A program made the translations under genes and the position numbers. The notes beneath the pieces are model-generated. The model did not search any database. It worked only from the letters and a program-made list of their open reading frames with translations, and was not told where the DNA came from. A stretch of 64,000 nucleotides of DNA from Bryoerythrophyllum caledonicum (lineage: Eukaryota; Streptophyta; Bryopsida; Pottiales; Pottiaceae), in the NCBI GenBank assembly GCA_963971425.1, contig OZ020521.1:9441519-9505518 (forward strand), read 5' to 3'. Shown here in pieces: positions 7,222-64,000 of this stretch; within the stretch, counting starts at the first letter, position 1; every line of letters starts with the position of its first letter.

Positions 7222-8339
7222 TACATACTCTAGACAAGGAGGATACAACTATAACAACTGGAGCCTAATTGATGGATTCTGCGTACGTACAACTAACCAT
7301 ACCACATTTACTTCCACAACAGACAATAACATTCAACTGAACTCTGATCACTCACCTATACAACTCCACATCCCAAACAACACATTTATAAACCGTACAC
7401 CAACCAACACAAACAATGACCACATACGTATCCTCAACCTTATCCCACAAAACAACATAGAATTATTCAACACAAAATTCTTTGAAGAAAACTCACTACG
7501 CATTGACTCTCTAATAAACGAATTCGAATCTAATAACCATCTTTCCCAAACACAATGGCAAGAAGTCTGTCACACCCTAGATACACTCATCAACAACATA
7601 TCCAATACGATTGAACAAACTTGCAAAGCCCAACCCATATCACAAATGACAAATCGAACATCACAACAAGGTGGATATTTTCCCCGGAAACTATCTAAAA
7701 CATAGAAACAACATCTAACCATTTACCACACCATACGGAAAACCATAAAAATCGTAAATAACAACCCCCAACGGCGAAACCACCCTATTCTCAACGAACT
7801 CCAAAACCTTCAACACACACAAATCCCTAACCCACCCCCATACACCTACCTCATGACACATGGATAAATGACATAGCATTAATTGCAAAAAATGCCAACA
7901 TACAAGCCCGAAAAATCACCACCAAACATACCCAAGAAAACATTCGAAAAGCCATCTCCAAATACAGACAACTATATGAAACTAGCTCCAAGAAAATAAA
8001 CAGAAGAATATTCAAAAGTATGGAGTCCCCACCATTAGACTGCATCATCAACCAATATAACAATATACTAACTAGCCCAAAAGACATTGCAAACAAAATA
8101 TTTAACCAACAAACAAAAAACAACACACCTACGGTAAACACATGCAACTATCAACCGGACCACCGCACTACATGCACATGCGCAATACGACAATATCCAT
8201 GGCATGACCTAGATGGATTCACATTAGAAACAAGAGGAGACCCGGAAACCCCACTACACACATACTTTAAACAAGCTACATATGACACATGCCTACGTAA
8301 CCTAACAAAGCCCCCGGACCGGACCGCATACCGAACTCT

Positions 8340-9940
8340 ATCCTAAAAAATATGCCCCCAAGGTTCCACAAACTACTAAACCTCTTCTTCTCCCAGTGCT
8401 ACAAACAAAGACAAATCCCCGCTTCATGGAAACAAGTACAACGATCCTACTATACAAAAGAGGAGATCCATCCATGCTACCGAACCATAGACCCATCGCA
8501 CTAGCCAATACCATCTATAAACTATTTACGAGCACATTCACATCAATACTATCATCATATGGCGAAAAACATAAAATACTGCATGATAGTCAAGAAGGAT
8601 TCCGCGCAGAAAGAAGCACCGCTAGACAAATCCAAACAATAATAGCCGCATTAGAAGATGCACGATTTACAAACCAAGACATATTTATACTGTATGTTGA
8701 CTTTAAAAATGCCTTTGGCTCTATTGACCAGGCTAGACTTTTAGCCATAATGATGGACCTTGGATACCCCAAAGACGCCACCGCACTAGTGGGAAATATA
8801 TACTCCGAATCCTCAACTTCCTACATAGGAGAACACTTTGGTAAAACCAAACCCATAGCCATCCAAAGAAGAACAATACAAGGAGATACCCTAAGCCCAT
8901 ATTTATTTATTATATTCCTAGAATCACTACTTAGATGGCTAGATAGAGGCAACAATGGATACACATTCGGGACATCACCAACCACCATCAACTCCATGGC
9001 ATACGCAGACGACCTTGCCGCCATAACCAACAAAATCAACGCCATAAAAATATAAATTAACAAAATAGACAGGTACTGCAAATGGACAGGTATGGATGTA
9101 GGGGTCCCAAAATGTGCCATCATTGGATGCCCAAATAAATCAGAAACAAACCCCACCACATTCAAAGCCCTCATACAAACCTCTAACATTAATTACCAAA
9201 ACCAACAAATACCCGTTCTACACCAAAACGAACCATACACATATCTAGGAATAAGTCTTGTCCCCTCCCTAAAATGGAAAACCCAAATTCATGCCACCAC
9301 CAAAAAATTAATCAAACAATGCGAAGAACTAGTAGCTTGTCCGGCCATTATGAAACAAAAAATAAAAATAATCAACACAGTTTTAAGACCGGGTGTGGCA
9401 TACAGCTTCTACGCGGTACCATACTCAATGCCCGCCATCAAAAAACTGGACCAAAAAATAACTACGACACCAAAAACCGTATGCGGCATGCCAAAATGTA
9501 TGTCTAACATAATTACCCAACTACCACACAACCTCTTTGGACTAGAAGCCTTCTCACTAAAAAACGCATACCTTAGATGCATAGGAGAACAACTCCAGAA
9601 CGCTCTAAGTGACAGTGGCAGACTTGGAAAAATATACAAAGGCCTAACACATCACATCCTCGCACAATATGGCGAGGCAGAAAACATACCTAGAATTAAA
9701 AAGACAAATTGTACAAGATCACCAATAACACGTACCTTCTTCTTACTAAAACACGTAGCAAAGGTCCACCTAAAAAGCACTCTCCCCAACTTTCTTACAG
9801 AACCAAAAGCACTAGAAAAAGCCTGGACTTTTGAAACACAAAACCATAATACACTCAACACACAATTATCTCAAAAGTTATTACAAAAACTCCTAACAAA
9901 AAATATCTACGAACTAAAACAAATCTCCCTATCCAACTGA
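8340..9940 (+). pseudogene. LINE reverse transcriptase domain, copy 1
   Basis: Frame 8396-9055 carries the classic reverse transcriptase blocks: NHRPIALANTIYKLF (fingers), FILYVDFKNAFGSID (block A, catalytic Asp), QGDTLSPYLFIIFLE (block B) and MAYADDLAA (block C, catalytic Asp pair). The same frame continues after a single TAA at 9053 into the thumb (YLGISLVPSLKWKTQI, then AYSFYAVPYSMPAIKKLD) up to the stop at 9938. The TAA can be explained by one change of a CAA codon. Upstream of 8396 a deletion removes the conserved APGPDRIPN stretch that is intact in the other copy. The domain would prime cDNA synthesis at the nicked target in a functional element. Confidence 0.85.
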
Positions 9941-11479
9941 ACAGACATCATGAACAATGAAGAATTTAAAACCTACCTCTTCACCCCATCAAAACTTATT
10001 AAAAGTGCCCTAAAAATTGCACGACAACTCTTTTGTCACCCAATATATCCCCCCCCCACCCAATACACATACCAATACACATACATACTCTCATACAATT
10101 AGAGACCCATTCATCACCCCAAGAAATATCACCACTCAATCAATCCACCCTCCCCACTCCCACCCACACCACTCCCACCCCCCAAACCACATCCTCAAAA
10201 ACCCCACCACCTATCCCATTAACAACATCATACACCATGAATACAAGAAAAAAATAGAAAAAAACCAAATCGAAAACAATTACACTAGATATCTATGCCA
10301 ATGTATTCATAATAACTACACCTACAACAAATGGCTCCCCCAAAGAAACCTCTTCCCAAGACACAACCAAAACACCATTTCACATAACACAAATAAATTG
10401 ACACAATATTATCAAAGAACTCAACACAAATTCTACACCGAAATTATCCAAGTTCACCACCCACAAAACCAACCCCAAGACACAAGGTCCGTTACCCCAC
10501 CCACAATAATTCCCCTACTAAACATCTACACAACGGAATGCAACCCCGAAAAAGACACTCTTACCTCATCTAACACAATAAAAATTGACAAAGACCAAGC
10601 ACACTTATACAAAGAAGATGGAAGGCATCTTTTTACCATCCCAATCGCTAGGCTCACATGGTCGTGGAACCAATACAATACTAAACTACAAACCCCTACA
10701 AACATTGAACTAGCAACCCAACCGTTCAAAACCGAAGTCATTTGGCTATACCAAAGATACAAATATAGATTACCAAAAAATAACCCCCTTAAACTTACAC
10801 AATATACACTATCCATACCTATACTAAATTCACTAATCTCCACATTCAACATCCAACACTCATATTTCTCCTCCCCCGTCACATGCCCCATCAAACTCAA
10901 CAAATTTTACTCCCCTTTTGAAAGAGATAAAATATTCGGATCACTAGGCAAAGCCTTTGACCACAAATGGATAGGTAATGGTATGGCCCACCCACACAAT
11001 GAAGAAGAAACACAACAAGCTCTACATTGGGCCCGCCTCGCGACCAAACATGACCCAAACCACACCTCCACCCTAATTATAACCCCTCACAAAAATTGGT
11101 ACCAAAATCATAATCCACACTCGGGCCCCTTTCCCGATACACACATCATCACAATATTCGAAGCGGATTCAATAACATATGAAGAACCCACCATCCCACT
11201 AGATCTAAAAAACCTAGAATTGATTCATCCACCCTACAAATAATATGCATCCACCACCAAAATCATACTCTAGGCACACAAGAACAACTAGAACTCTCCT
11301 CCATAGCAAAGACTCTAAACGTACACCGGATACTCACAAAATTGGCCCCACCAACGCCAATGCAAACACCCGTCAACAGAAGCAAAAAATAGTCAAAACT
11401 ACACTACAATAACAATACACTAAACTACACCTTAACACCCCCACCCCTCCCGGAGTATCAAACTAACACCCCACTTAAA

Positions 11480-11915
11480 TTTAACCCCGAATATAGCTAC
11501 TATACTGATGGCTCCTTCAAACCGCCAGAAGCCCGGGATCTTGGCGTAGAAAAAGCCGGTTATGGAATATACAACGCTACGAAAGAAATCAAACTAGCCA
11601 AAAGACTACATGGACTGCAAAACATCCTCAGAGCAGAACTAATGGCCATCCACAAAACACTAGAAATCGTCTCAACAAAATACAACAATGAACCGGTGCA
11701 CATTTTTACAGATTGCATTAACGCACTATATTTATTAAACACCCAAATAACACATCCTATCCTCCATAATAGTCAGCCCGACCGGGTCATACTAGAATCA
11801 ATGGTCCAAATGATACTAAAAAGAGAACAAATCACAACCCTCCACAAAGTCTGAGCCCATGCTAATATTGATGGCAATGAACAAGCGGATAAACTTGCAA
11901 AAGAAGGAAGAGAAA
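11480..11915 (+). pseudogene. LINE RNase H domain, copy 1
   Basis: The reading frame shows YYTDGSFKPPE (first Asp), RAELMAIHKTLEI (Glu), VHIFTDCINALYLL (second Asp) and HANIDGNEQADKLA (final His/Asp region), which is the D-E-D-D order of type I RNase H. A TGA at 11852 interrupts HKV-AHANID; the other copy has Arg there, so the lesion is a single CGA to TGA change. The domain lies between the reverse transcriptase linker and the finger/nuclease module, as in RNase H-bearing LINE clades. Confidence 0.8.
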
Positions 11916-12214
11916 AATCACGTAAAAATGCCAAAGACCCACATGAACACGCCCATGCCACCCCTTACTATTTCCAAAAAGAAGATTGGTCCTCCAAAGA
12001 AGACACCCCCGATAAAGGCCCGGTCAGATTCCTGAGCAAATACCTCAAAAAACAAGACCTACATAACAATCTTGACACAATCACAGACAACTTTCTTAAC
12101 ATAGAAAAGTGGACTAACAACAATGACATAGACAATGAACTCTCTACAAATTTTTGGAAAAACCCCATCATCACCGATTCACAAATAACATGCCTTATCA
12201 AATTCCGTACCGGT

Positions 12215-12950
12215 CAATATATGGGAAACGCCCGGAAACAACTCTTCTTTGGAATAGAAAGATTTCCATCCATAACATGCCCCATATGCCCCTCAACGGA
12301 CCCCGACACATGGCTACATGTTCTACTCAAATGCCAAAACCACCACATACACGCCCTAATTGTTAAAAGACATAACAAAGCAGTATGGGAAGTCCGAAAA
12401 CTAATCACTTCCTAGAATAAATCGAGATGTTTTATACTAATGAACGCTGGCACTTTCAATAACAATCCACAAGAAAATACGGTCCCCCTGTGGCTACTTC
12501 CATGCTCATGTAACCCAACGATGTCATTGCAACGCTAGGCTCAAACCGGACATCCTTTGTGTCAAAGGTTTACCATACAATGATCCACCACCCAATAACG
12601 TCAACCAAGATTACACCATTCAATTCATTGAATTCACATATTGCAACGATAGATTTTCCCCGGAAACAATCCAAAATAAAATAGACAAATACCAACCCCT
12701 TATTGACGACATCATCGCCCTCGGATGGAATGTCGACCCCCATATGGTAATCACATCCGGCGCTCGGGCCACCACCTTTATCCCATCTATGAAAACTCTA
12801 GAAGACACCTTCAAGATACCCATTGAAACAATTAAAACATCCTTTAAAAACATTAACACCATAGCTATCCAACATGCTATGTCCATTCTTCTACATAAAC
12901 GCAAAATCGAAAACTACCAAGCCCTCCCCGATATACAGGACCCCCCCTAA
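12215..12950 (+). pseudogene. LINE CCHC finger and restriction-like endonuclease, copy 1
   Basis: CPICPSTDPDTWLHVLLKC gives C-x2-C-x9-H-x4-C, followed by VKRHNKAV. That finger plus RHN is the signature upstream of the restriction-like endonuclease of R2-type LINEs. After the frame breaks around 12412 and 12530, the coding continues with KPDILCVKG and then FIEFTYCNDRF, followed by a K-x2-K-Y segment, the layout of a PD-(D/E)XK nuclease. This copy is interrupted by a TAG and a frameshift. Identification of the nuclease is by motif order only. Confidence 0.6.
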
Positions 12951-13195
12951 ATTCTCCCCCCGCCTTGATTTATCAAGACTGGTTGGTTTTAAGGTTTTTG
13001 ACTACTTGCCTGGTTTGTGGTTAGTTCGTTGGCTAGTTGCTTGTTTTGTGATTCGTTGGTTGGTTGGTTGACTTGTGGTTCTTTGGTTTCTTGTTACATA
13101 GTGTCTACCCTCGAGAGAGGGAAGTAGTTCCAGCTCACTAATTCCTTGTCCTGTGGGCATGGTCTCAATAGTGGAACGAACAGACACTTTATTCT

Positions 13196-13236
13196 CGCCG
13201 GTCTCCTTCGGAGACCGGCGTTCTTCTTCTTCTCTT
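13196..13236 (+). promoter_or_regulatory. LINE 3'-terminal hairpin and (TTC)n tail, copy 1
   Basis: CGCCGGTCTCC, loop TTC, GGAGACCGGCG forms a perfect 11-bp stem at 13196-13220, directly followed by TTC repeats. It sits at the very 3' end of the element, where LINE reverse transcriptases recognise their own RNA. The other copy (48169-48193) and a segment at 15490-15514 have the same structure. Confidence 0.7.
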
Positions 13237-13245
13237 TGTATTGTA

Positions 13246-13817
13246 CAGTGGAGTGACACCCATATTGGCGCCTTGTGCAATTCTGGAGATAGTGTCCACA
13301 TTGCTCCTAATTTTGACACCCTTTCAAAGACTGAGATTTGTTATTTTACCATGAAATTTTAAACAAAAAATCACCTTTATGTTGAGATCATGTGTACCAA
13401 ATTTCAAGGCGAGGAGGTTTATACAAAGAATGATATTCAAGATTTACCAACAAGGGGTAGCTGTAAGAAAAGTTTCACAGCTGCCAACTTTGACATCCTT
13501 CCAAGAATTGAAGAATTTTTTTTTCCCATGGAATATTTGGAGTGGAAACACCTTTATGTTAATTACACGTGTGCAAAAAAATTCAAGTCCAAAAGATCCA
13601 CAAAGAAAATGATATTCCAAATCTACCAATAGGTGTAGTTGTGAGAAACAAAAGGGAGAATTGTTTCACAACTTCCAACTTTGACAGCCTCCATAGGGCT
13701 GAGAATTTATTATTTCAACATGAAATTTTTGTCACAAGATCATTGTTATGTTGATAACATTTAAAAAAAAATTCAAGGCCAAAAGATACATACATTCATA
13801 GTTATTTAAAATCTACC
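13246..13817. repeat. Left inverted arm of the Tc1/mariner element
   Basis: This arm matches the reverse complement of 16201-16774. It includes several spaced copies of a short motif (ACAAGATCATTGTTATGTTG and relatives such as AATCACCTTTATGTTGAGATC), so the arm itself seems built from internal repeats of about 180 bp. The transposase stop codon (13806-13808) lies at the inner edge. Confidence 0.8.
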
Positions 13818-16200: not shown

Positions 16201-16774
16201 TAGATTTGAATAACTATTTTTGTGTCTATTTTTTGGCCTTGAAATTTTTGGCACATGTTATCAACATAACAATGATCTTGTGACAGAAATTTCATGTTGT
16301 GATAACAAATTCTCAGCCCTAGGGAGGCTCTCAAAGTTGGAAGTTGTGAAACAATTTTCCCCTTTGTTTCTCACAACTACACCTATTGGTAGATTTGGAA
16401 TATCATTTTCTTTGTGGATCTTTTGGACTTGAATTTTTTCACACATGTAATTAACACAAAGATGTTTCCACTCCAAACATTCCATGGGAAAAAAAAATTA
16501 TTCAATTATTCTTGGGAGGATGTCAAAGTTGGCAGTTGTGAAACTTTTCTTAAAGCTACCCCTTGTTGGTAAATCTTGAATATTTTTTTTTTGGTGTAAA
16601 TCTCCAGGACTTGAAATTTGGCACACATGTTCTCAACACAAAGATGATTTTGTGTTTAAAATTTCATGGTTAAAATAACAAATTTTCAGTCTTTGGGAGG
16701 GTGTCAAAGTTGGCAACAATGTGGACACTATCCCTGGAATTACACAAGGCGCCAATTTCGGTGTCACCCGACTG
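16201..16774. repeat. Right inverted arm of the Tc1/mariner element
   Basis: Reverse-complement partner of 13246-13817, ending ...CGACTG before the TA duplication. Similarity is continuous with scattered substitutions. Confidence 0.8.
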
Positions 16775-16782
16775 TACATATA

Positions 16783-48153: not shown

Positions 48154-48193
48154 GAAGAAGAAGAAGAACGCCGGTCCCCAAAGGAGGCCGGTG
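48154..48193 (-). promoter_or_regulatory. LINE 3'-terminal hairpin and (TTC)n tail, copy 2
   Basis: Read on the - strand: CACCGGCCTCC, loop TTT, GGGGACCGGCG, then TTC repeats. Nine of eleven stem positions can pair (one is G-U). The structure is kept although the sequence differs from copy 1 at several stem positions. Confidence 0.65.
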
Positions 48194-48439
48194 TGAATAA
48201 AGTGTCTGTTCGTTCCACTACTAAGACCATGCCCACTGGACAAGGAATTAGTAAGGTGGAACTACTTCCCTCTCTCGAGCGAGGGTAGACACTATGTAAC
48301 AAGAAGCCAAGAACCACAAAACGATCAACGACCAACAAATCACAAATCAAGCAATTAGCCAACGAACTAACTACAAACCAAGCAAGTAGTCAAAAACCTC
48401 AAAACTAGCTAGTCATGAAAATCGAGGCGGGGGAAGAAT

Positions 48440-49171
48440 TTAGGGAGGGTCTTGTGTATCGGGAAGGGCTTGGTTGTTTTCGATTTTGCATTTATGTTGA
48501 AGAATGGACATGGCATGTTGGATAGCTATGGTGTTAATGTTTTTAAAGGAAGTTTTAATTGTTTCAATGGGTATCTTGAAGGTGTCTTCTAGGATTTTCA
48601 TAGATGGGATAAAGGTGGTGGCCCGAGCGCCGGATGTGATTACCATAAGGGGGCCGACATTCCATCCGAAGGCGATGATGTCGTCAATAAGGGGTTGGTA
48701 TTTGTCTATTTTGTTTTGGATTGTTTCCGGGGAAAATCTATCGTTGCAATATGTGAATTCAATGAATTGAATGGTGTAGTCTTGGTTGATGTTATCGGGT
48801 GGTGGGTCATTATATGGTAAACCTTTGACACAAAGGATGTCCGGTTTGAGCCTAGCGTTGCAATGACATCTTTGGGTCGTACATGAGCATGGGAGTAGCC
48901 AAGGGGGGACCGTATTTTCTTGTGGATTGTTATTAAAAGTGCCGGCGTTCATTAGTATAAAACATCTCGATTTATTGTAGGAGGTGATTAGTTTTTGGAC
49001 TTCCCATACCGCTTTATTATGTCTTTTAACAATTAGGGAGTGTATGTGATGGTTTTGGCATTTGAGTAGAACATGTAACCATGTGTCGGGGTCCATTGAG
49101 GGGCATATGGGACATGTTATGGATGGAAATCTTTCTATTCCAAAGAAGAGTTGTTTCCGGGCGTTTCCCAC
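48440..49171 (-). pseudogene. LINE CCHC finger and restriction-like endonuclease, copy 2 (domain intact)
   Basis: An uninterrupted 243-codon segment. Counting from its first Met, C20, C23, H33 and C38 form the finger, RHN is at 50-52, PD at 110-111 (RLKPDILCVKG), FIEFT at 136-140 with the acidic Glu138, and K154/K157-Tyr158 follow (NKIDKYQPLI). The order finger, RHN, PD, acidic residue, K..KY is that of the R2-type restriction-like endonuclease. The domain would nick the target DNA. The upstream part of the same polyprotein is broken, so the segment is not an independent gene. Confidence 0.6.
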
Positions 49172-49469
49172 ATATTGACTGGTACGGAATTTGATAAGGC
49201 ATGTTATTTGTGAATCGGTGATGATGGGATTTTTCCAAAAATTTGTAGAGAGTTCATTGTCTATATCATTGTTGTTAGTCCACTTTTCTATGTTAGGAAA
49301 GTTGTCTGTGATTGTGTCAAGATTGTTATGTAGGTCTTGTTTTTTGAGGTATTTGTTCAGGAATCTAACCGGGCCTATATCGGGGGTGTCTTCTTTGGAG
49401 GGCCAATCTTCTTTTTGGAAATAGTAAGGGGTGGCGTGGGCGTGTTCATGTGGATCTTTGGCATTTTTA

Positions 49470-49950
49470 TGTGATTTTTCTCTTCCTTCTTTTGCAAGTT
49501 AATCCGCTTGTTCATTGCCATCAATATTAGCATGGGCTCGGACTTTGTGGAGGGTTGTGGTTTGTTCTCTTTTTAGAATTATTTGTACCATTGATTCTAG
49601 TATGATTCGGTCGGGGTGACTATTAAGGAGGATAGGGTGTGTTATTTGGGTGTTTAATAAATATAGTGCGTTAATGCAATCTGTAAATATGTGCACCGGT
49701 TCATTGTTGTATTTTGTTGAGACGATTTCTAGTGTTTTATGGATGGCCATTAGTTTTGCTCTAAGGATATTTTGCAGTCGATGTAGTCATTTGGTTAGTT
49801 TGATTTCTTTCGTAGCGTATTATATATTATCACCGGCTTTTTCTCTGCGCCACGATCCCGGGCTAATTTGTTCTGGCGGTTTGAAGGAGCCATCAGTATA
49901 GTAGCTATATGCGGGGTTAAATTTAGGTGGGGTGTTAGTTTGATACTCCG
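49470..49950 (-). pseudogene. LINE RNase H domain, copy 2
   Basis: YYTDGSFKPPEQ (near 49895) supplies the first Asp. MAIHKTLEIVSTK with a preceding Glu, HIFTDCINALYLL and HKVRAHANIDGNEQAD follow. A TAA directly after EQAD and a frame change after YYTDGSF break the frame. The intact HKVRAHAN shows that the TGA in copy 1 replaced an Arg codon. Confidence 0.75.
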
Positions 49951-51585
49951 AGAGGGGTGGGGGTGTTAGAGTGTAGTTTAGTGTGTTGTTATCGTAGTGT
50001 AGTTTTGACCATTTTTTGCTTCTGTTGACGGGTGTTTGCATTGGCGTTGGTGGGGCCAATTTTGTGAGTATCCGGTGTATGTTTAGAGTCTTTGCTATGG
50101 AGGAGATTTCTTCTAGTTGTTCTTGTGTGCCTAGAGTATGATTTTGGTGGTGGATGCATATTATTTGTAGAGTGGATGATTCAATTCTGGGCTTTTTTAG
50201 ATCTAGTGGGATAGTGGGTTCTTCGTATATTATTGAGTCCGCTTCGAATAGTGCAATGATGTGTGTGTCAGGGAAGGGGCCCAAGCGTAGGTTAGGATTT
50301 TGATACCAATTTTTGTCAGGGGTTATGATTAGGGTGGAGGTGCGGTTTGGGTCATGTTTGGCCGCGAGACGGGCCCAATGTAGTGCTTGTTGTGTTTCTT
50401 CTTCATTGTGTGGGTGGGCCATACCATTACCTATCCATTTGTGGTCAAAGGCTTTACCTAGTGATCCGAATATTTTATCTCTTTCAAAGGGGGAGTGAAA
50501 TTTGTTGAGTTTGGTGGATCATGTGACGGGGGAGGAGAAGTATGAGTGTTGGATGTTGAAAGTGGAGATTAGTGAATTTAGTATAGGTATAGGTAGTGTT
50601 TATTGTGTAAGTTTAAGTGGGTTGTTTTTTGGTATTCTATATTTGTATCTTTGGTATAGCCATATGACTTCGGTTTCAAATGGTTGGGTTGTTGGTTCAA
50701 TGTTTGTTGGGGTTTGTAATTTAGTATTGTACTGATTCCATAACCATGTGAGCCTAGTGATTGGGATGGTGAAGAGGTGTCATCCGTCTTCTTCGTATAA
50801 GTGTGCTTGGTCTTTGTCAATTTTAATTTTGTTAGATGAGGTGAGAATGTCTTTTTCGGGGTTACATTCCATTGTGTAGATGTTTAGTAGGGGAATTATT
50901 GTGGGTGGGGTGATGGACCTTGTGTCCTGGGGTTGATTTTGTGGGTGGTGAGCTTGGATAATTTCGGTGTAAAATTTGTGTTGAATTTTTTGATGATATT
51001 GTGTCATTTTATTTGTATTATGTGTAATGGTGTTTTGGTTGTGTCTTGGGAAGAGGTTTCTTAGGGGGAGCCATTTGTTGTAGGTGTGGTTATTGTGAGT
51101 CCATTGGCATAGATATCTAGTGTAATTGTTTTTGATTTGGTTTTTATCTATTTTTTCTTTGTATTTGTGGTGTATGATGTTGTTCGTGGGATATGTGGTG
51201 GGGTTTTTGAGGATGTGGTTTGGAGGGTGGGGGTGGTGTGAGTGGGAGTGGGGAGGGTGAATCAATTGTGGGGGGATATTTTTTGGGGTGATGTTGTTGT
51301 TTATAGTGATGAATGGATCTCTAATTGTATGAGAGTATATATGTGTATTGATATGTGTATTGGGTGGGGGGGTATATTGGGTGGCAAAAGAGTTGTTGTG
51401 CGATTTTGAGGGCACTTTTACTTATTTTTGATGGAGTGAAGTGGTAGGTTTTAAATTCTTCATTGTTCATAATGTGTGTTCCGTTAGGTAGGGACATTTG
51501 TTTTAGTTCGTAGATATTTTTTGATAGGAATTTTTGTAATAGCTTTTGAGATAATTGTGTGTTGAGCGTATTATGTCTTTGTGTT

Positions 51586-53205
51586 TCAAGAGTCCAAACT
51601 ATTTCTAGTGTTGTTGGTTGTATAAGAAAGTTGGGGAGGGTACTTTTTAGGTGGACTTTTGCTTCGTGTTTTTAGTAAGAAGAAGGTACGTGTTATTGGT
51701 GATCTTGTACAATTTGTCTTTTTTATTCTAGTTACATTTTCGGCCCCCCCATATTGGGCGAGGATGTGATGTGATAGGCCCTTGTATATTTTCCCAAGTC
51801 TACCACAATCATTTAGAGCATTCTGTAATTGTTCTCCTATGCATCTGAGGTATGCGTTCTTTAGTGAAAAAGCTTCGAGTCCAAAGAGGTTGTGCGGTAA
51901 TTGGATTATTATGTTAGACATATATTTTGGCATGCCGCATACGATTTTCTGTGTGGCAGTAATTTTTTTGTCTAGTTTTTTGATGGCGGGGATTGAGTAT
52001 GGTACCGCGTAGAAGCTATATGCCACGCCCGGTCTTAAAACTGTGTCGATCATTTTTATTTTTTGTTTCATAGTGGCCGGACAAGCTACTAGTTCTTGGC
52101 ATTGTTTGATTAATTTTTTGGTGGTGGCATGGATTTGGATTTTCCATTTTAGGGAGGGGACGAGATTTATTCCTAAGTATGTGTAAGGTTCGTTTTGGTG
52201 TAATACGGGTATTGGTTGGTTCCGGTAATTGATGTTGGAGGTTTGTATTAGAGCTTTGAATGTGGTGGGGTTTGTTTTTTATTTGTTTGGGCATCCAGTG
52301 ACGGCACATTTTGGGACACCTACGTCCATACCTGTCCATTTGCAGTACCTGTCTATTTTGTTGAGTTGTGTTTTTATGGTGTTAATTTTGTTGGTTATGG
52401 CGGCAAGGTCATCCGCATATGCCGTGGAGTTAATGGTGGTTTGTGATGTCCCAAATGTGTAACCATTGTTGCCTCTATCTAGCCATCGAAGTAGTGGTTC
52501 AAGGAATATAATGAATAATTATGGGCTTAGAGTATCTCCTTGTATTGTTCCCCTTTGGATGGCTATGGGTTTAGTTTTACCAAAGTGTTGTGCTATATAG
52601 GAGGTTGAGGATTCAGAGTATATATTTCCCACTAGTGCGATGGCGTCTGTGGGCTATCCAAGGTCCGTCATTATGGCCAAAAGTCTAGCGCAGTCGATGG
52701 AGCCGAAGGCGTTTTTGAAGTCAACATACAGTATGAATATGTCTTGGTTTGTAAATCTTGCATCTTCTAATGGGGCTATTATTGTTTGGATTTGTCTAGC
52801 GGTGCTTCATTCTGCGCGGAACCCCTCTTGACTATCGTGTAGTATTTTATGTTTTTCGTCATATGATGATAGTATTGATGTGAGTGTGCTTGTAAACAGT
52901 TTATAGATGGTATCGGCTAATGCAATGGGTCTATCGTTGGGTAGTATGGATGGGTCTTCTTTTTTGTATAGTAGGATTGTTGCACTTGTTTTCCATGAAG
53001 CAGGGATTTGTTTTTGTTTATAGCAGTGGGTGAAGAAGAGGTTTAGTAGTTTGTGGAATCTTGGGGGCATATTTTTTAATATGGAGTTCGGTATGCGGTC
53101 CGGACCGGGGGCTTTATTATTTTCTAGGTTACGTAGGCAAGTGTCATATGTAGCTTGATTAAAGTATGTGTATAGTGGGTTTTCCGGGTCTCCTCTTTTT
53201 TCCAA
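51586..53205 (-). pseudogene. LINE reverse transcriptase domain, copy 2
   Basis: Frame 53205-52807 has CLRNLENNKAPGPDRIPNSI, LYKKEDPSILPNDRPIALAD and SQEGFRAE. Frames 52831-52300 on the - strand continue with the block A region, TAYADDLA (block C, near 52420) and the thumb; 52071-51586 holds AYSFYAVPYSIPAIKKLDKK. Several single-base frame changes and stops divide the segments. All catalytic blocks are recognisable. Confidence 0.8.
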
Positions 53206-54039
53206 TGTGAATCCATCTAGGTCGTGCCATGGGTATTGTCGTACTGCACATGTGCATGTAGTGCGGTGGTCCGGTTGATAGTTGTATGTGTTTACCGTAG
53301 GTGTGTTGTTTTTTGTTTGTTGGTTAAAAATTTCGTTTGTAATGTCTTCTGGGCTGGTTAGTATATTGTTGTATTGGTCGGTGATACAGTCTAATGGTGG
53401 AGACTCCGTAGTTTTGAATACTCTTCTGTTTATTTTTTTGGGGCTAATTTCGTGTAGTTGTCTGTATTTGGAGATGGCTTTTCAAATATTTTCTTGGGTA
53501 TGTTTGGTAGTTATTTTTCGGGCTTGTATGTTGGCATTTTTTGCAATTAGTGCTATGTTTTTTATCCATGTGTCGTGCGGTATATGTATGGGGGGTGGAT
53601 TAGGGATTTGTGTGTGTTGAAGATTTAGGAGGTCGTTGAGAATAGGGTGGTTTCGCCATTGGGGGTTGTTATTTACGATTCTTATGGTTTTCCGTATGGT
53701 GTGGTAAATGGTTAGATGTTGTTTCCATGTTTTAGATAGTTTTCGGGGTAAATATTCACCTTGTTGTGATGTTCGATTTGTCATTTGTGGTATGGGTTGG
53801 GCTTTGCAGGTTTGTTCAATTGTATTGGATATGTTGTTGATGAGTGTATCTAGAGTGTGACAGGCTTCTTGCCATTGCGTTTGGGAAAGATTGTTATTAG
53901 ATTCTAGTTTGTTTATTAGGGAGTCAATGCATATTGAGTTTTCCTCGAAGAATTTTGTATTGAATAATTCTATGTTGTTTTGTGGGATGGGGTTGAGGAT
54001 ACGTATGTGGTCGTTATTTGTGTTGGTTGATGTACGGTT

Positions 54040-54815
54040 TATAAATGTGTTGTTCGGGATGTGAAGTTGTATGGGTGAATGATCGGAGTTTAGATGGATG
54101 TTGTTATTTGTAGTGGACGTAAGTGTAGTTTAATTAATTGCACGGACGTAGAATCCATCAATTAGGCTCCAGTTGTTATAGTTGTATCTTCCTTGTCTAG
54201 AGTATGTAGTGTTTGTGGGAATATAATTAAAGTTTAGGTTTTTTGTGAATTGTTTTCATTATAGGTCTATTATTTATGGTGGGGTGTGTTGGTTTTCATT
54301 TTGTCTAGCTATGAGGGCAACGTCTCTATTGAAGTCACCACATAAGATGTGGTTGAAGTTGCTGGTGATATGGGTGGTGATGTTGATTTTGATGTCCTTG
54401 GTGAGGCTGATGTCTTCGGGATGGGATGGCATATATATGTGGTGGATTAGCCATGGTTGTAGTGGATGATTGGAGATTTCCATTGGGGATATGGGGATAT
54501 GTCCATTGGGGTGGGAATTTTTTTGATATTGCCTGGAAAGGCGTGGTTTTTGTGTATAAGAGTGAGGAGGCCCCCTCGACCCGGTGTGTATGGTCTTTTT
54601 TGTTGTATGCATCGTATTAGAGTATGTGTATTATTGAAGATAAGTTTGTAGTCAGGAAATAGTCTTTGAATGTATTTTGTAGATTTTGTGGCCGATATTT
54701 TTGTTTCTTATATGACTATGAATGTCGGAGGTGTGTTAGTGTGTGTAATGATGTTTTATAAGTTTGGGAGCGCGGTGTTGAGGGATGAGGCGTTCCATGT
54801 TATTATGCTTGTGTT
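54040..54815 (-). pseudogene. LINE apurinic-type endonuclease domain, copy 2
   Basis: TSIITWNASSLN at about 54800 is the first conserved block (Asn). RGGLLTLIHKNHAF follows, then WLIHHIYMP, HILCGDFNRDVALIARQNE (catalytic Asp and Asn) at about 54340, and SDHSPIQLHI at about 54085 (final Asp-His). This is the order of LINE apurinic/apyrimidinic-type endonucleases. At least two frame breaks and a stop occur. Copy 1 keeps only the last ~50 residues. Confidence 0.75.
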
Positions 54816-54829
54816 GTTGTTATTCGTTT

Positions 54830-56210
54830 GTGGGTTCTGGTTTTGTGGTGGGATGGGGTTCTGCGGTGGGGGTGGGTGTGAGTACTCCGGGAGGGGGTTT
54901 AGGCATTTTAGTGACTCATTTATGATTGTGTTAGGGAGGTAGGGGATTTTTTTTATTGTGTCATTTGTTGGAGGTGTATTTTGGTTGTGTATAAAGTCAT
55001 GTAGTTATTTATTTATTGATGTGTTGTAGTTTATGGCATTTAAATTTGTTTCAAGAAATGTTATGTAGGGATGTGGGATATTTATGTGTCTTTCAGGTGG
55101 GTTTTGTAGGTTTTTTAGCGTGTATAGGAGTGTATTGGCCCATTGGGTTGTATTTAGATTTTGTGTGTTCAGGAGTTGGTTGCAGAGGTTTATGTTGGGG
55201 TGTATAGTGAAGACTAGAACGTATAAAATGTGGGAAGGAGGGTATTCGTTATGTTGATTTATATATATGGCTATGTGTGGGTATGTGTGATTATGTTGTT
55301 GGTGTAATGTATGTGTGGTGTTGAGAAGGGGGGCAAAATTTTTGGCGATGTGTTCATATTTGGGTTGTAATTTAATGGTATTTGGAATAAAATATGTTTT
55401 GGCATTCTTTTTGTGTTAGGCGGGGTGTCTTTTTAATATGTTCGGCATAGGTCCTGGGTTAGTCTCTATGTCCCCTCCAATTAGTATTAATATTTTGTAG
55501 TAGGTGAGTTTTTTATTTTGTTTTATACTTTTTTGTTTTTGTATGTGGCTTTGGTTTTTTGTTTTGTGCTTTCTTAATAGTATGTTTTCGTGTAGTTTTA
55601 TAAAAGGATGCTGGATGTGAATGTATCTTTCGAGTGGGTTTTGTAAGTTAGGTCGGATTTGTAGGAGTGTATTGATCCATGTGGTTGTGTTCAAATTTTT
55701 TGAGTTTAGGAGATGGTTATATTCGTCTGTGTGTGAGTGAATAATGACTACTATTGTATATAGAACGTGGGGTGGAGGATGCTTATTTTTTTGTTGTATG
55801 TGTTGGGCGATGTTTAGGTGTGTAGTGTTATATATGTGGTGTAGTGTATGTGTGTTTTTTAAACAGGGTGTGAAGGATCTTTTAATGTGTCTATATTTTT
55901 GTTGTGATTTTATGGTGTTAGGCATGATGTATTTTTTGGTATTTGTTTTATGTGTAGCGGGGTGTTTTTTTAGTATGTTAGGTATGGGTCCCGGATAGGT
56001 TTCTATTTTTCCTTCTAGAAGTGGTAGGAGTATGTGGTGTATATGTTTGGTGTAGTATTTTAGAGTAATTGTTTTGTATATATTTTTATGGGTATTTTTT
56101 ATGTTGTTGTGATTTTTTTGGTTTGGGGAGAGGTGGGTGTTTGTATTTTGTACGAGGGTAATGAATTCTTTGTTTTTCATTTTTATATTGGGTGTAGTTA
56201 TATTTGTCAT
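54830..56210 (-). pseudogene. N-terminal part of LINE second gene with two 2A-headed modules
   Basis: From ATG 56210 the frame runs to a stop at 55416 and continues in frame beyond it. Two similar ~170-residue modules follow each other. Each begins with a 2A-like motif (GKIETYPGP at 56012-55986; GDIETNPGP at 55475-55449), then PNILKKHPA or PNILKRHPA, a block with HTLHHIYN/HTLHQQHN, PPPHVLYTIVVIIH/PPSHILYVLVFTIH, LNSKNLNTTTW/LNTQNLNTTQW and NPLERYIHI/NPPERHINI. The second copy meets D-I-E-T-N-P-G-P exactly, the consensus of ribosome-skipping 2A peptides; the first lacks the key Asn. The endonuclease domain follows. Module function is unknown. Confidence 0.7.
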
Positions 56211-56908
56211 TAACTTTTTATGTGGCCATGTGTTTATTTACGAAGCTGTATTTGTTTTTTTGATGGTGTATAGATGTATGTGTGTTTGGTTGTTTTTATA
56301 TTTTGTTGTTATTATTGTTATTATTATTTTTCTCTTTGTATTTGGCCATGTGTGTATGTGATTGTTATGTTTGAGAATATATTTATGTGGGTTTATGTTG
56401 GTATGTGAGGGGGTATGTAGGCTATTATTTTTATATGTGGTGTTAGTGTTATATGTGTTGGAGTTTATACAAGTTTTTATGTTTGTATTAGTATGTAATT
56501 TGGTATTTATACTGATGTTTATATTCGTGTATGTATTTGTACAAATGTCAATATTTTTGTCTTATATAGTATACATACATATATTTGTATTTGTATTGTA
56601 TACACAGTATTTGTTATAATATTTGTTTTTATTTTTATTTTTAGTTTTGATACAGTGTATATATACCATATGTATAGTGTATATCATATATTTTGTAGGA
56701 TATATGTCTATGTATGTATTTATGTATTCTACCATGTATTCTGATATATATATCTCCATGTATACGGTGGAAAATACTACATAGGTACTACCAAGTATTA
56801 GTATGATTTTATAGTATGTTTGGGTAGTGGCTAGATGTATTCTACTGCGGTCATATTCTATAAAATACGGATGAGGTGTTGAGTTTTTGGCCTTGAGGTT
56901 GTCTTTCT

Positions 56909-58402
56909 TCACATTTTTGACGAGTCTTCTTCAATTGAGGTGTGAGGTTTGGACCCCGTGATGTTTTGCAACATTGCAAAGGTGGTACCGACACATTCTT
57001 GGATCTTCAACATTTGGTCTTTGATTTCTTGGAGTTCTTTGGCTTTTGCTTCCGCTTGTTCTTTGACTTCTTGCCTCAAAATCTTGTTGTTTGCTTCGAA
57101 CGCCTCCATTAGGTCCTTCTTGGTGATTGCTTGGGACGGGGTGTGAAGTTTGAAGGTCTCCACCGTGTTAATGATGGCTTTGTTGATGTCTTCAAAGCCA
57201 AACTCTACGAGTTGGGCTTGGGTGGGAGGCTCAATTCCATCGATGCTCCTTCTATGAGGAGCGAACTCCACAAAGTGGCCACTTATGGGAATGGTTTTCC
57301 CCGTGAATGATCTATACACAATTGGATTAGCACATACCACATTTGCACTTCCATTATGGCAAACTCCATTGTCCTTGTGAAACCAAATAGAGCGAACATT
57401 AGAGTCTCCCACAATTGTATGGATAACATTAGTGGTCTCAATAACATTCATAAGTATAGGGAGGTGGGAGAGTGTTAGGATGAGGGCGTCTTTCTTAGCC
57501 TTCATTTCCTTGGTGATGTGGGTTCCTCCAAGTGGCTTTTTCGTTTGCATGACTTCTTGGCGTGCGGTTACTTGTAGCTCTTGGATTTTCTTGGCTTGTT
57601 GCGGGGTGGTGGTCAAGATGAAGGCAAATCCATCTCCTTTTGCCTTCTGCATGCTAGTCACTTCAAAATCATGCCCACGTTTAAAGCTAGATTCAAGGAC
57701 CTCTTTAAAGAGGTGATTAGCGGCAATGTTATGTAAGGAAGGACTTTGAATTTTGACTGATAAACTAGAATGGTGTGCAATACTGTGGTAAGTTTTACAT
57801 ACCTTTCCCACCACGTTGACCTCATCGATTTTGAGAATGAAGGGTCTAATCCCTTTGAGGAGGAGTAGGCCATCAATTGCCGGTTTTGCAAGGTGTAGCT
57901 TGATTAGTCCTAACCAAACACCTTTTTTCCCTCCTCCTTATTTGATGCTTAAGCAATGAATTGAGATAGATTCGATGAGCTTCTTACCAAGAGGGATGTC
58001 CATGTCTTTGAGGCGGTTAGTAACCATCGCTTTGACTTCATCATGCAAAATAGGGTTAGTGGGTAGTTCGAAATAAATAGCAACTTGGAAATCTAAAACT
58101 AAGCCCGTACCTTCATCCATAGGAATATTGGTTGGCACTTGTGTGAGGTTGTAGTGTTGCCCTCCTAGGCCACGTGCCTCTCTCGAGTGTGGATAGTGAA
58201 TCTGTGGGATGTGTGGAAAGGCCATTCGTGCTTGCTTGACTTCTCGGGCTTCATTCTCTTTGAGCCCTCTGGTCAACATGTCTTCGGTTGTTTCTTCGTA
58301 AAGGAGCTCATCCAATCCCTCTTCCACAGCTAGGTCTTCCATCACTTGCAAACCTAGCCAAAATTTGAAGCAATTGATGTCAGGAGTGGTGATGAGTGCC
58401 AT
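56909..58402 (-). pseudogene. LINE first gene (ORF1-like), one in-frame stop
   Basis: From ATG 58402 (MALITTPDINCFKFWLGL) the frame is open to TAA at 57938 and continues in the same frame, without any shift, to the stop at 56909; about 497 codons in all. Visible parts: an acidic N-terminus, DEGTGLVLDFQVAIYFELP, FAFILTTTPQQAKKIQELQV, NVIHTIVGDSNVRSIWF and a C-terminal coiled coil (AFEANNKILRQEVKEQAEAK). No CCHC knuckle or RRM was recognised. A coiled coil is common in LINE first proteins, which bind RNA. The TAA lies between ...HCLSIK and GGGKKG. It could instead be a captured or unrelated gene upstream of the LINE. Confidence 0.5.
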
Positions 58403-58787
58403 ACCTTTTTTTCCCCTGTCATCTTGGACGTTTATGCTCTTCTTGCTGCTCCCGGATTCTTCTTCGTTTCTCCTGTAGCCTTTCTCTTTTGGGGCTGTGA
58501 CTTATTGTACAACCAACTCGTCAACTTCCATCTCTTCATTGAACATAATGCTCCTCCTACTATTCATTTCAAGGCAACCCTTATGATGTAAATTTTTTTG
58601 AAAGAAAGGTGTCGTACCACAAATTTTAATTTTTTTTAGTTAAGAAGTTAACTATGCTAAATCCTAGACTAATTAGTTCAGGTTTTAAGTTAATACTACT
58701 TTGGTATAGTTTATTAGATAGGTTAGGGTACAAAATTAAAAGGGATTGTAAGGATACCTTAAAACCACGAAGCATGGACCTAGGACC

Positions 58788-59052
58788 AGCCCAAGCTGGA
58801 GCCCAAGACTGGAGCCCAAGCCGGAGCCTAAGCCTGGACCCCAAGCTCGGACCCAAAGCCCGGACCCCAAGCCTGGAGCCCAAGCCGTAGCCCAAGACTG
58901 GAGCCCAAGCCGGAGCCTAAGCCTGGACCCCAAGCCCGGACCCCAAGCTTGGAGCCCAAGCCTGGAGCCCAAGCCGGAGCCCAAGACTGGAGCCCAAGCC
59001 CGGACCCCAAGCCCGGAGCCTAAGCCTGGACCCCAAGCCCGGACCCCAAGCC
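58788..59052. repeat. 12-13-bp GC-rich tandem repeat
   Basis: About 20 units of GCCCAAGCCTGGA or GGACCCCAAGCCC alternate irregularly. Long frames open on both strands here (Leu/Gly/Pro-rich) are by-products of the repeat. Confidence 0.85.
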
Positions 59053-59339
59053 CGGAAGAGTGATCTGGACAAGGAGTGAGAGACAAATACAAGTTGTAAA
59101 GCGAGAATCGAACGTGCCGAGCCCGGAGCAATAGCTGGAACGAAAGGAAGAAACGTGGAATCTACAACCGCAGCCCGTCGGAATCTTCCCCTTAAGCTCC
59201 GGTCAACTACTTAACCGACCTCACCTGACCTCTATAGCACCACTGATTAGAGAGAGGACGAGCTGAAGCCAGGAACAAGAGAGAACGAGCTGAGCCAGAA
59301 GCAAGTGAGAAGACGAGCTGAGCTAGGAGCAGGGAGAGG

Positions 59340-60320
59340 ACAAACACAACCCGGAGGCACCGTCGAGGCAAGCCCGGAGGCACTATTGCGTACAAGCCCG
59401 GACGCGCTATCGAGGTACTTCCGGAGGCACTGTCGAGGCAAGCCCGGAGGTACTATGGAAACAAGCCCGGAGGCACTCACTCTTACCAGCCCGGAGGCAC
59501 TGTCGAGGCAAGCCCGGAGGCACTGTTGCTTACAACCCAGAGGCACCTTCACGTACGAGCCCGGAGGCGCTGTCGAGGTAAGCCCGGACGCACTCATCCT
59601 TACAGCCCGGAGGCACCTTCACTGTCGAGCCGGAGGCACCTTCACGTACGAGCCCGGAGGCGCTGTCGAGGTAAGCCCGGACGCACTCATCCTTACAGCC
59701 GGGAGGCACCTTCACTGTCGAGCCGGAGGCACCTTCACGTACGAGCCCGGAGGCGCTGTCGAGGTAAGCCCGGAGGCACTCACTCTTACCAACCCAGACG
59801 CACTGTCGAGGCAAGCGTAGAGGCACTGTTGCTTACAACCCGGAGGCATCTTCACGTACGAGCCCGGAGGCGCTGTCGAGGTAAGCCCGGAGGCACTCAT
59901 CCTCACTCCCGGAGTCACTCATCTTTACAGCCCGGAGGCACTGTGGAGGCAAGCCCGGAGGCACTCACTCTTACCAGCCGGAGGCACTGTTGAGGCAAGC
60001 CCGGAGGCACTGTTGCTTACAACCCGGAGGCACCTTCACTTACGAGCCCGGAGGCGCTGTGGAGGTAAGCACGGAGGTACTCATCCTTATAGCCCAGAGG
60101 CACTGTGGAGGCAAGCCCGGAGGCACTCACTCTTACCAGCCCGGAGGCACTGTTGAGGCAAGCCCAGAGGCACTATTGCCTACAACCCGGAGGCACCTTC
60201 ACGTACGAGCCCGGAGGCGCTGTCGAGGTAAGCCCGGATGCACTCATCCTTACAGCCGGGGACACTGTAGTAGCCGAACCGGAGGCACCACCACTTACCG
60301 CCTAGAGGCACCATCACACC
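59340..60320. repeat. Satellite array based on GCCCGGAGGCACT
   Basis: The short unit AGCCCGGAGGCACTGTCGAG occurs dozens of times with spacers such as CTTCACGTACG and CTCATCCTTACA. A higher-order period of about 93 bp is visible (for example GGCACCTTCACGTACGAGCC at 59540, 59635 and 59728). Frames across it on both strands translate to repetitive Arg/Gly/Pro-rich sequence and are not considered genes. Confidence 0.85.
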
Positions 60321-62512: not shown

Positions 62513-63522
62513 TGTTGACTTTGGGTTTTGACTTGGTTTTGCCTTGGGTTTTGTGAAATAAGTTACCTTCTGACGGTGCATGTCGTGTGGAGTGACAGCC
62601 ACCGCCGCCAAGAGTAGTTAATGCGCCGTTTTAGTTAGAAGGTATCGTTTGAGTTTGGACTCTTGTGTGAGTCCTTCGCAGTATAAGAGAGGAGTCTCAT
62701 GGCCTCTTTCTTCACTGTTTGATGTGTGTATTCGCTTTCAGTTTGAATTCTAAATCTACGCTCTAAGAAGACCTTTGAAGGTTGGAGAGCTCGGATTGCA
62801 TACATGACTGTGAGTGCCATTTCAAGTAGTCTACTCCTCAAGTCTATACTAATTGTCCAATCACTGTTTCCATGTTCCATCAAGTAGATTAGTCCCGGTG
62901 GATGGAAATAACAGGTGAGGTGAGAGGATAGTTAGTAGGGGCGTGACTCTAACTCTAAACCGTTACAGTTGTTTCCTTGTTCCATCAAGTAGAATAGTTG
63001 GGGTGGATGGGAATAACAGGTGAGATTGTACGTGTCTAGGGAAGGACGAGGGGGGAGTGACGGATGTGTAAGGGTCATAGTGAGTCTTGAGTGACCTTCC
63101 GGCGTACCGGTTGGTGTCGGTTGTGAAGACTCGTATCATTCCCTGAAGCACCCTACCTCCCGTTGTATCGGATGTGGAGGGAGGCTGAGAGGAGGACGGA
63201 TAGTGGGCAGGTAGGCCCCTTGTTCACTTACATTACGCCCCTCACAGTGTCGGAAACACGGGTCTAACCCCTCCTTCGGCGGGGGATCTCAGTGACGCCA
63301 TAACCATCCAAGTGAGTGAGTAGAGTTAGAAGGAGAGAATGGGAGGAAGAGCCTCTGTTACTTGTGTCAAACACTAAAATCTCTGTGAGTCCTCAGATCA
63401 TCGTCCGTGGTGATAAAAACCCCTGCCGAGTACGCATGTACTCTGGATGTCCATATTGTGCATAGGTGTAACTATAAGCCCTAGCTCTAATCTAAAGTTT
63501 GAGTAATAAAAGTCCTTCCTAC
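62513..63522 (+). other. Possible LTR-like region downstream of the gag-like gene
   Basis: Begins TGTTGACTTTGGG just after a purine/G-rich stretch and includes a TATA-like TATAAGA at 62682 followed by a CT-rich leader. Direct repeats of CCATCAAGTAGA (62877, 62983) and GGATGG.AATAACAGGTGAG (62900, 63006) mark an internal duplication of about 106 bp. I found no matching second LTR inside the window, so the call is tentative. Confidence 0.3.
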
Positions 63523-63798
63523 ACGTACGAGGTAGGACGTACGAGGTAGGACGTACGAGGTAGGACGTACGAGGTAGGACGTACGAGGTAGGACGTACGA
63601 GGTAGGACGTACGAGGTAGGACGTACGAGGTAGGACGTATGAGGTAGGACGTACGAGGTAGGACGTACGAGGTAGGACGTACGAGGTAGGACGTACGAGG
63701 TAGGACGTACGAGGTAGGACGTACGAGGTAGGACATACGAGGTAGGACGTACGAGGTAGGACATACGAGGTAGGACGTACGAGGTAGGTCGTACGAGG
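63523..63798. repeat. 14-bp satellite, about 19 units
   Basis: Nearly perfect head-to-tail copies of ACGTACGAGGTAGG; a few units have ACATACG or ACGTATG. The unit is not a multiple of three but is free of stops in all three - strand frames, which explains the overlapping Tyr/Val/Arg/Pro-rich frames there. Confidence 0.95.
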
Positions 63799-64000
63799 AG
63801 ACAACACGCGTACGAAGAATGGGGTACTTGGTGTAATTAACACCCAGCCTTTGTGATCTAAACCTTTATTCTCTCCTTTCTTTTGATTGTATCTATTGTA
63901 TAATTGATATTGTATAGATTTTTGGCTTGTTGTTAGTCGTTGTAGTTCTCGGTGACTCTCTGTGGGAACGATTACCTTAAGGGTATCTTTGTGTTAAAAT
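63799..64000. other. Window end; possible LTR/internal boundary
   Basis: AT-rich. CTCTGTGGGAACGATTACC at 63958 resembles the conserved CTGTGGGAACGA tract found near the LTR ends of many plant Ty3-type elements. The element would continue beyond the window. Confidence 0.3.

Follow-up and report, generated by a model that had tools for sequence, protein, structure and literature searches.

The Dualen/RandI group of long interspersed nuclear elements (LINEs), reportedly described by Kojima and Fujiwara in 2005, combines features that most LINEs hold separately, R2 elements for example are without an apurinic-type endonuclease (APE) or RNase H. Dualen is the group in which an APE and a restriction-like endonuclease (RLE) occur together (PMC4640811, PMC3636483), it is reported to carry RNase H in addition (PMC4640811) and was present in all Chlamydomonas-related species curated in one study (PMC8226300), whilst a 2022 review placed land-plant LINEs in L1 and RTE (PMC9033089). 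Here we analysed a 64,000-nt stretch of the Bryoerythrophyllum caledonicum genome (contig OZ020521.1, hereafter the window), in which positions 48154-58501 of the minus strand hold one decayed member of a LINE family that is abundant in the genome. We conclude that this family, a land-plant one, probably belongs with the Dualen/RandI type of non-LTR (long terminal repeat) retrotransposon, which has two endonucleases, a likeness drawn from descriptions of Dualen only.

The family occurs twice in the window, and the second copy shares 91.1% identity with positions 54208-48156 of the first over 6059 aligned columns. Stops and frameshifts interrupt each of them; in the 48154-58501 copy the reverse transcriptase (RT) frame contains four stops and the frame 50518-48443 three. 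As this copy is split in this way, the one-frame architecture rests on other copies: the genome searched was the 437 Mb assembly, in which an RT query gave 6475 candidates at first look; the 70 that were scored all shared at least 85% identity (the window's own counted), and ten additional copies were taken, picked for long open frames. The features in the window are as follows, ORF denoting open-reading frame.

56912-58501, minus strand: ORF1, ~530 aa, with one stop at 57938-57940 between the open pieces 57941-58501 and 56912-57937
55598-56111, minus strand: first ~175-aa module with a degenerate 2A-like head, GKIETYPGP (coordinates from alignment with the second module)
55061-55592, minus strand: second ~175-aa module with a perfect 2A motif, DIETNPGP, at 55449-55472 (motif, and alignment with the first module)
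54073-54803, minus strand: APE, frameshifted, with TWN, ETK, GDFN and SDHSP
52162-52956, minus strand: RT core, RVT_1 at 1.3e-24, with YADD at 52408-52419
51047-51154, minus strand: weak chromodomain-like stretch (PF00385 at 15.4-18.2 bits in four fragments, all below the cut-off of 25.1)
50216-50671, minus strand: PCIF1-like domain (PF12237) with HPHN at the NPPF position
49481-49909, minus strand: RNase H of PF00075 type, catalytic E replaced by K (9e-10, 39.3 bits in the window copy)
49016-49114, minus strand: CCHC finger C-x2-C-x9-H-x4-C, then RHN (motif)
48560-48850, outer limits approximate, minus strand: putative RLE domain KPD...E...K-x2-KY...GAR, motif core 48689-48847 (residues ~2241-2358 in the ORF2 numbering of copy L011)
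48154-48195, minus strand: 3′ end, a hairpin then (TTC)n (tail pattern and folding)
7222-13275, plus strand: second copy of the same LINE family, with a 5′ truncation inside the APE

The order across the ten additional copies is ORF1, then a large ORF2 consisting of 2A, APE, RT, the weak chromodomain-like stretch, the PCIF1-like domain, RNase H, CCHC-RHN and the putative RLE. An initial annotation of this DNA had described one element with all of the nuclease, RT, RNase H and finger motifs; those motifs do follow one another as expected along the minus strand, but the 48154-58501 copy is not intact and is one of two in the window. The extra N-terminal modules of that annotation correspond to ORF1 and the two tandem 2A-headed modules; a PCIF1-like domain, which it did not name, lies between RT and RNase H. 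ORF2, which in the window copy measures ~2,380 aa between the 2A motif and its end, is a single frame in L011 (2653-11040, with two stops) and frameshifted in other copies; its last 1141 aa are open in L013, and 1240 aa are open in L023, from the end of the RT through the PCIF1-like domain, RNase H, CCHC and RLE. A division into two separate ORFs, suggested by a frameshift common to both window copies, was considered and rejected, L011, L013, L017 and L023 read through it. Pfam was run on four proteins from the additional copies, RT being present in three. The APE exceeded its cut-off in L015, one of the two copies in which it was tried, and RT, RNase H and PCIF1 also scored over theirs, which bears out the APE, RT and RNase H assignments made initially from motifs. 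In 300 codon shuffles of the region, the expected number of matches per three frames was 0.0 for the RLE core, CCHC-RHN, GDFN, SDHSP and 2A, and 0.003 for [FY]ADD.

Nested insertions could by chance have built a patchwork which mimics one element, and the part above 55564 does vary between copies, whilst L023 adjoins an older reversed copy. However, the block equivalent to window positions 55564-48154 starts within 6 bp of one point in seven of ten copies, is 88-92% identical and reaches a common 3′ end; in L009 it is split in two, yet begins at the common start point, and in L025 and L023 it begins later. A single reading frame with codon-position bias also extends throughout, and we regard a patchwork as scarcely credible against a single element. 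Upstream of this block, the fetched copies are 63-74% identical to the window copy or have no match, the 5′ part of the elements is a mosaic. This 5′ part includes a tandem unit of ~123 nt in several copies, and in L011 the APE has a second start.

Differences between the two window copies, by codon position, were 62/43/142 in APE-RT, 10/9/16 in 51671-51324, 35/29/61 in 51421-49823 and 19/14/36 in 49823-48443, compared with 11/10/7 in the 3′ untranslated region (3′UTR). When differences were counted against the per-column majority of 11 copies, a third-position excess was found in all 12 ORF2 stretches (fraction 0.44-0.65, highest in the PCIF1-like domain at 0.65), whilst the 3′UTR gave 29/36/28, a third-position fraction of 0.30. 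The excess extends throughout ORF2, therefore the whole of ORF2, including the 2A module and the PCIF1-like domain, was kept under purifying selection in the ancestral elements that gave rise to these copies.

The APE motifs of the window copy are found on the minus strand at ~54803 (TWNASSLN), 54328-54348 (GDFN) and 54073-54087 (SDHSP), and the motif letters are present in most copies covering them. The APE piece of the window copy matched Exo_endo_phos_2 at 0.0066, under the cut-off, and L015 matched Exo_endo_phos at 1.1e-5 (25.7 bits, cut-off 24.5). For the RT, RVT_1 scored 89.3-96.0 bits against a cut-off of 29.6 in each of the three additional-copy proteins with an RT, and in a search of the PDB the nearest chains were three R2 entries (6.3e-28 to 5.5e-27), with human L1 at 2.1e-17 and R2Bm at 1.6e-15. 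A chromodomain in ORF2 is no more than hinted at by the sequence, since PF00385 stayed below its cut-off and was not listed in the 409-aa frame of the 7222-13275 copy or the 1240-aa frame of L023.

We placed the RT in an unrooted maximum likelihood tree of 11 rows, including the element, human L1, two L1s of the same genome and three R2s, with no Dualen. Human L1 and the two same-genome L1s formed a clade (99/96) which excluded the element, the three R2s formed another (97/96) without it, and the element's own clade was supported at 100/100. This bears on whether the family is a plant L1 with an added C-terminal domain, since an APE, RNase H and CCHC-type finger all occur in plant L1, and a firm grouping with plant L1 would have gone against the initial annotation. 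That grouping was not recovered; the RNase H matches PF00075 in the window copy and L023 with no RVT_3 listed, and the tail is (TTC)n. The tree speaks against L1 membership, though being small and without Dualen it cannot show membership of Dualen, and we give a modified plant L1 a very slim chance.

Beyond the RT, RNase H scored 9.8e-13 in L023 (48.9 bits, cut-off 25.8). The D-E-D-D set initially described for it is incomplete in the 48154-58501 copy, where the catalytic E reads K, whilst the E is present in other copies. The CCHC-RHN stretch lines up with residues 932-973 of R2Bm (phmmer domain 2, -0.7 bits, non-significant alone), and the order of CCHC, RHN, KPD, E, K-x2-KY and GAR is that of solved R2 proteins. 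D, E and K-x2-KY are kept in all 11 copies, which within one family is weak evidence, and also in one sister copy (see below); variants are confined to R for P of KPD in L013 and P for R of GAR in L023. The solved R2Bm construct 8ibw carries A in place of the KPD aspartate. A hidden Markov model (HMM) extended to include CCHC-RHN ranked ten C-terminal segments in the best 14 of 663 segments searched (3.5-7.6 bits), these are near-identical and so count as about one match.

The hairpin and (TTC)n tail were found by pattern in 10 of 12 copies, the exceptions being L013 and L021, and of three ends tried the fold gave z of -7.3, -2.7 (48154-58501 copy) and -7.2. RandI tails are likewise short repeats, whereas flowering-plant L1 tails are mostly poly(A), in 224 of 233 families (table, PMC3747384).

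Several results weigh against this interpretation. L009 had no Exo_endo_phos match in Pfam. For the second nuclease, neither a phmmer search of the C-terminus against the PDB nor Pfam returned a match, and an HMM built from the cores of three solved R2 RLEs placed no element C-terminal segment among its best 14 matches; with the longer HMM the best of 13,260 decoys reached 7.2 bits and one unrelated segment 8.2, and BLOSUM45 local alignment to R2 RLE gave z of 0.9-1.4, with 204-363 of 2000 shuffles as high. At the 3′ end, covariation of the hairpin amounted to one compensatory pair, not over shuffles, and around the 7222-13275 copy the longest common word was 6 bp, which is not credible as a target-site duplication. 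Of the two nucleases initially claimed for one element, the APE therefore stands by its score in L015, whilst the small R2 profiles did not yield a scored C-terminal nuclease; because the profile and pairwise tests are non-significant, we take the second nuclease to be a putative RLE by motif and order, as a working reading. Should the C-terminal domain not be a nuclease, only the APE would cut, and the absence of a significant score to R2 RLE favours this. Given the CCHC-RHN-KPD-E-K-x2-KY order, as in R2, the retention of D, E and K-x2-KY in all 11 copies and in one sister copy, and the A at the same aspartate in 8ibw, we think such an outcome improbable and retain the putative RLE.

ORF1 had nothing over the Pfam cut-off and its 342-aa piece gave 0 matches in a PDB search, in the genome it has 120 matches with 56-94% identity besides itself, and in six of the ten copies fetched blastn located DNA resembling ORF1 on the 5′ side of the ORF2 block. 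Some genomic ORF1 matches were listed in open frames of ~1230-1380 aa, far longer than 530 aa, and in one (L034, C7:2835002-2836027) no frame >250 aa was seen on reading. The tandem modules align to each other with a score of 455, whereas 300 shuffles reached 103 at most. D-I-E-x-N-P-G-P is kept in seven of the nine copies covering the site (L011 and L025 differ), and L009 carries an altered 2A motif outside the collinear block. The 2A motif and its presence in non-LTR retrotransposons have been described (PMC4981915), and plant viruses are reported to make no natural use of 2A (PMC12846837). L1Tc and sea urchin elements likewise carry D(V/I)ExNPGP, but these are APE-type and live in other hosts (PMC4981915), unlike the present element.

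The PCIF1-like domain scored over the PF12237 cut-off of 31.1 bits in the 7222-13275 copy (1.9e-10, 41.0 bits), in L023 (1.1e-10, 41.8 bits) and in L069 (49.3 bits), whilst the broken fragment of the 48154-58501 copy alone reached 14.6 and 12.3 bits, under the cut-off, and direct alignment to human PCIF1 (6irx) was weak (E 0.88). The element thus has PF12237 in common with PCIF1/CAPAM, the N6,2′-O-dimethyladenosine (m6Am) methyltransferase, but differs in having HPHN for NPPF: the catalytic NPPF was not present in the copies read, its position was HPHN in all but one of 11 copies, the exception having DPHN, and HPHN in L069 and HPHT in L071. Disruption of NPPF lowers PCIF1 activity (PMC6318281). 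No WW domain was listed in the Pfam results for the element's PCIF1-like domain. A changed motif kept under constraint suggests binding or an altered role. Genome-wide, the PF12237 search gave 2614 candidates, of which 150 were scored and all 150 exceeded the cut-off; for 33 of these the frame measures exactly 3087 aa and the match is free of stops (e.g. C8:15561129-15561545; L069, L070). Frames of identical length in such number indicate a sister family that spread recently. In one such sister copy both the RLE motif and HPHN are kept (417 and 440 bases read, the rest of the frame inferred). Literature searches on PCIF1 together with retrotransposons or reverse transcriptase gave no title on the combination.

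From this content a replication cycle can be proposed. The ORF1 product would, by its position, be an RNA-accompanying protein, and ORF2 would yield one polyprotein, and ribosome skipping at the 2A motif may leave its N-terminal module and its polymerase part as separate products. Judging by the domains present, the target would be nicked by the APE and/or the putative C-terminal PD-(D/E)XK nuclease, target-primed reverse transcription by the RT would copy the element RNA from its 3′ hairpin and (TTC)n, the template would be removed by RNase H, and second-strand cleavage may fall to the second nuclease. More speculatively, the likeliest role of the PCIF1-like domain would be to bind the element's own mRNA at its capped 5′ end and not to methylate it. 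We raise tentatively, with somewhat more doubt than conviction, the possibility that the family is a LINE lineage of its own in land plants, with a giant ORF2 polyprotein (3,087-aa sister frames), two nucleases, 2A-headed duplicated modules, a captured PCIF1 domain which the conserved HPH change has turned into a reader of RNA caps or equipped with a new catalytic site, and a sister family recently active.

The genomic setting supports an embryophyte host, as initially read: there were 31 NAM/NAC matches, many of which are paired exons and so represent fewer genes, and 150 scored zf-RVT matches of 429 candidates, zf-RVT being typical of plant L1. Such a pattern would suit a land plant poor in NAC genes, for example a bryophyte or lycophyte. 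In the PF00078 search the genome's strongest reverse transcriptases had ~160-codon cores, several in open frames of 1193 aa or 1378 aa, and these reverse transcriptases appear to be LTR-type. Two scans of viral contigs for relatives confirmed none. Within the window, a repeat in an inverted pair (13242-13810 and 16205-16778, 84-91%) starts directly after the 3′ end of the 7222-13275 copy, which sits at or in this inverted repeat. Beyond the 5′ end of the minus-strand copy, 58775-60260 and 63453-63854 hold GC-rich tandem arrays of ~13 bp and 23/70 bp, plus a 14-bp array.

Finding in a land plant a LINE with two nucleases and apparently intact recent relatives would widen the list of L1 and RTE. 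Each nick could then be traced to one nuclease or the other, for which LINEs with a single nuclease offer no means. The PCIF1-like domain in a LINE polyprotein would in turn suggest that retrotransposition is directly tied to the mRNA cap. Literature searches on Dualen, RandI or two nucleases gave no title on a land-plant case, a search that Repbase and most subscription papers lay outside.

In comparison with known systems, the element has in common with Dualen/RandI an APE, RNase H and a short-repeat 3′ tail, to which motifs and their order would add a putative RLE in the same element, and as expected of that group the APE lies N-terminal to the RT and the tail is not poly(A). It differs in its land-plant host and in a tail of (TTC)n, against (ATT)n or (CTATTT)n in RandI. 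An R2-group LINE with an RLE might instead have gained an APE independently, or the reverse, giving a separate two-nuclease lineage of Dualen-like working without membership; the RT being nearest to R2 proteins among PDB chains would fit this, as would the 2A-headed modules and PCIF1-like domain, neither of which is to our knowledge a Dualen feature. Against it stand the nucleases and RNase H reported together in Dualen (PMC4640811) and the short-repeat tail as in RandI (PMC3747384), and we consider an independent origin unlikely next to the Dualen/RandI type. With R2 the element shares the CCHC-RHN then RLE motif order and the nearest solved RT, but its RT falls outside the R2 clade and it carries an APE, so that it is not an RLE-only element. 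With plant L1 it shares APE, RT, RNase H, a CCHC-type finger and two ORFs, but its RT lies outside the L1 clade, the RLE motif is present and there is no poly(A). The two-nuclease plan is already known; what is new is its occurrence in this host, together with the 2A modules and the PCIF1-like domain.

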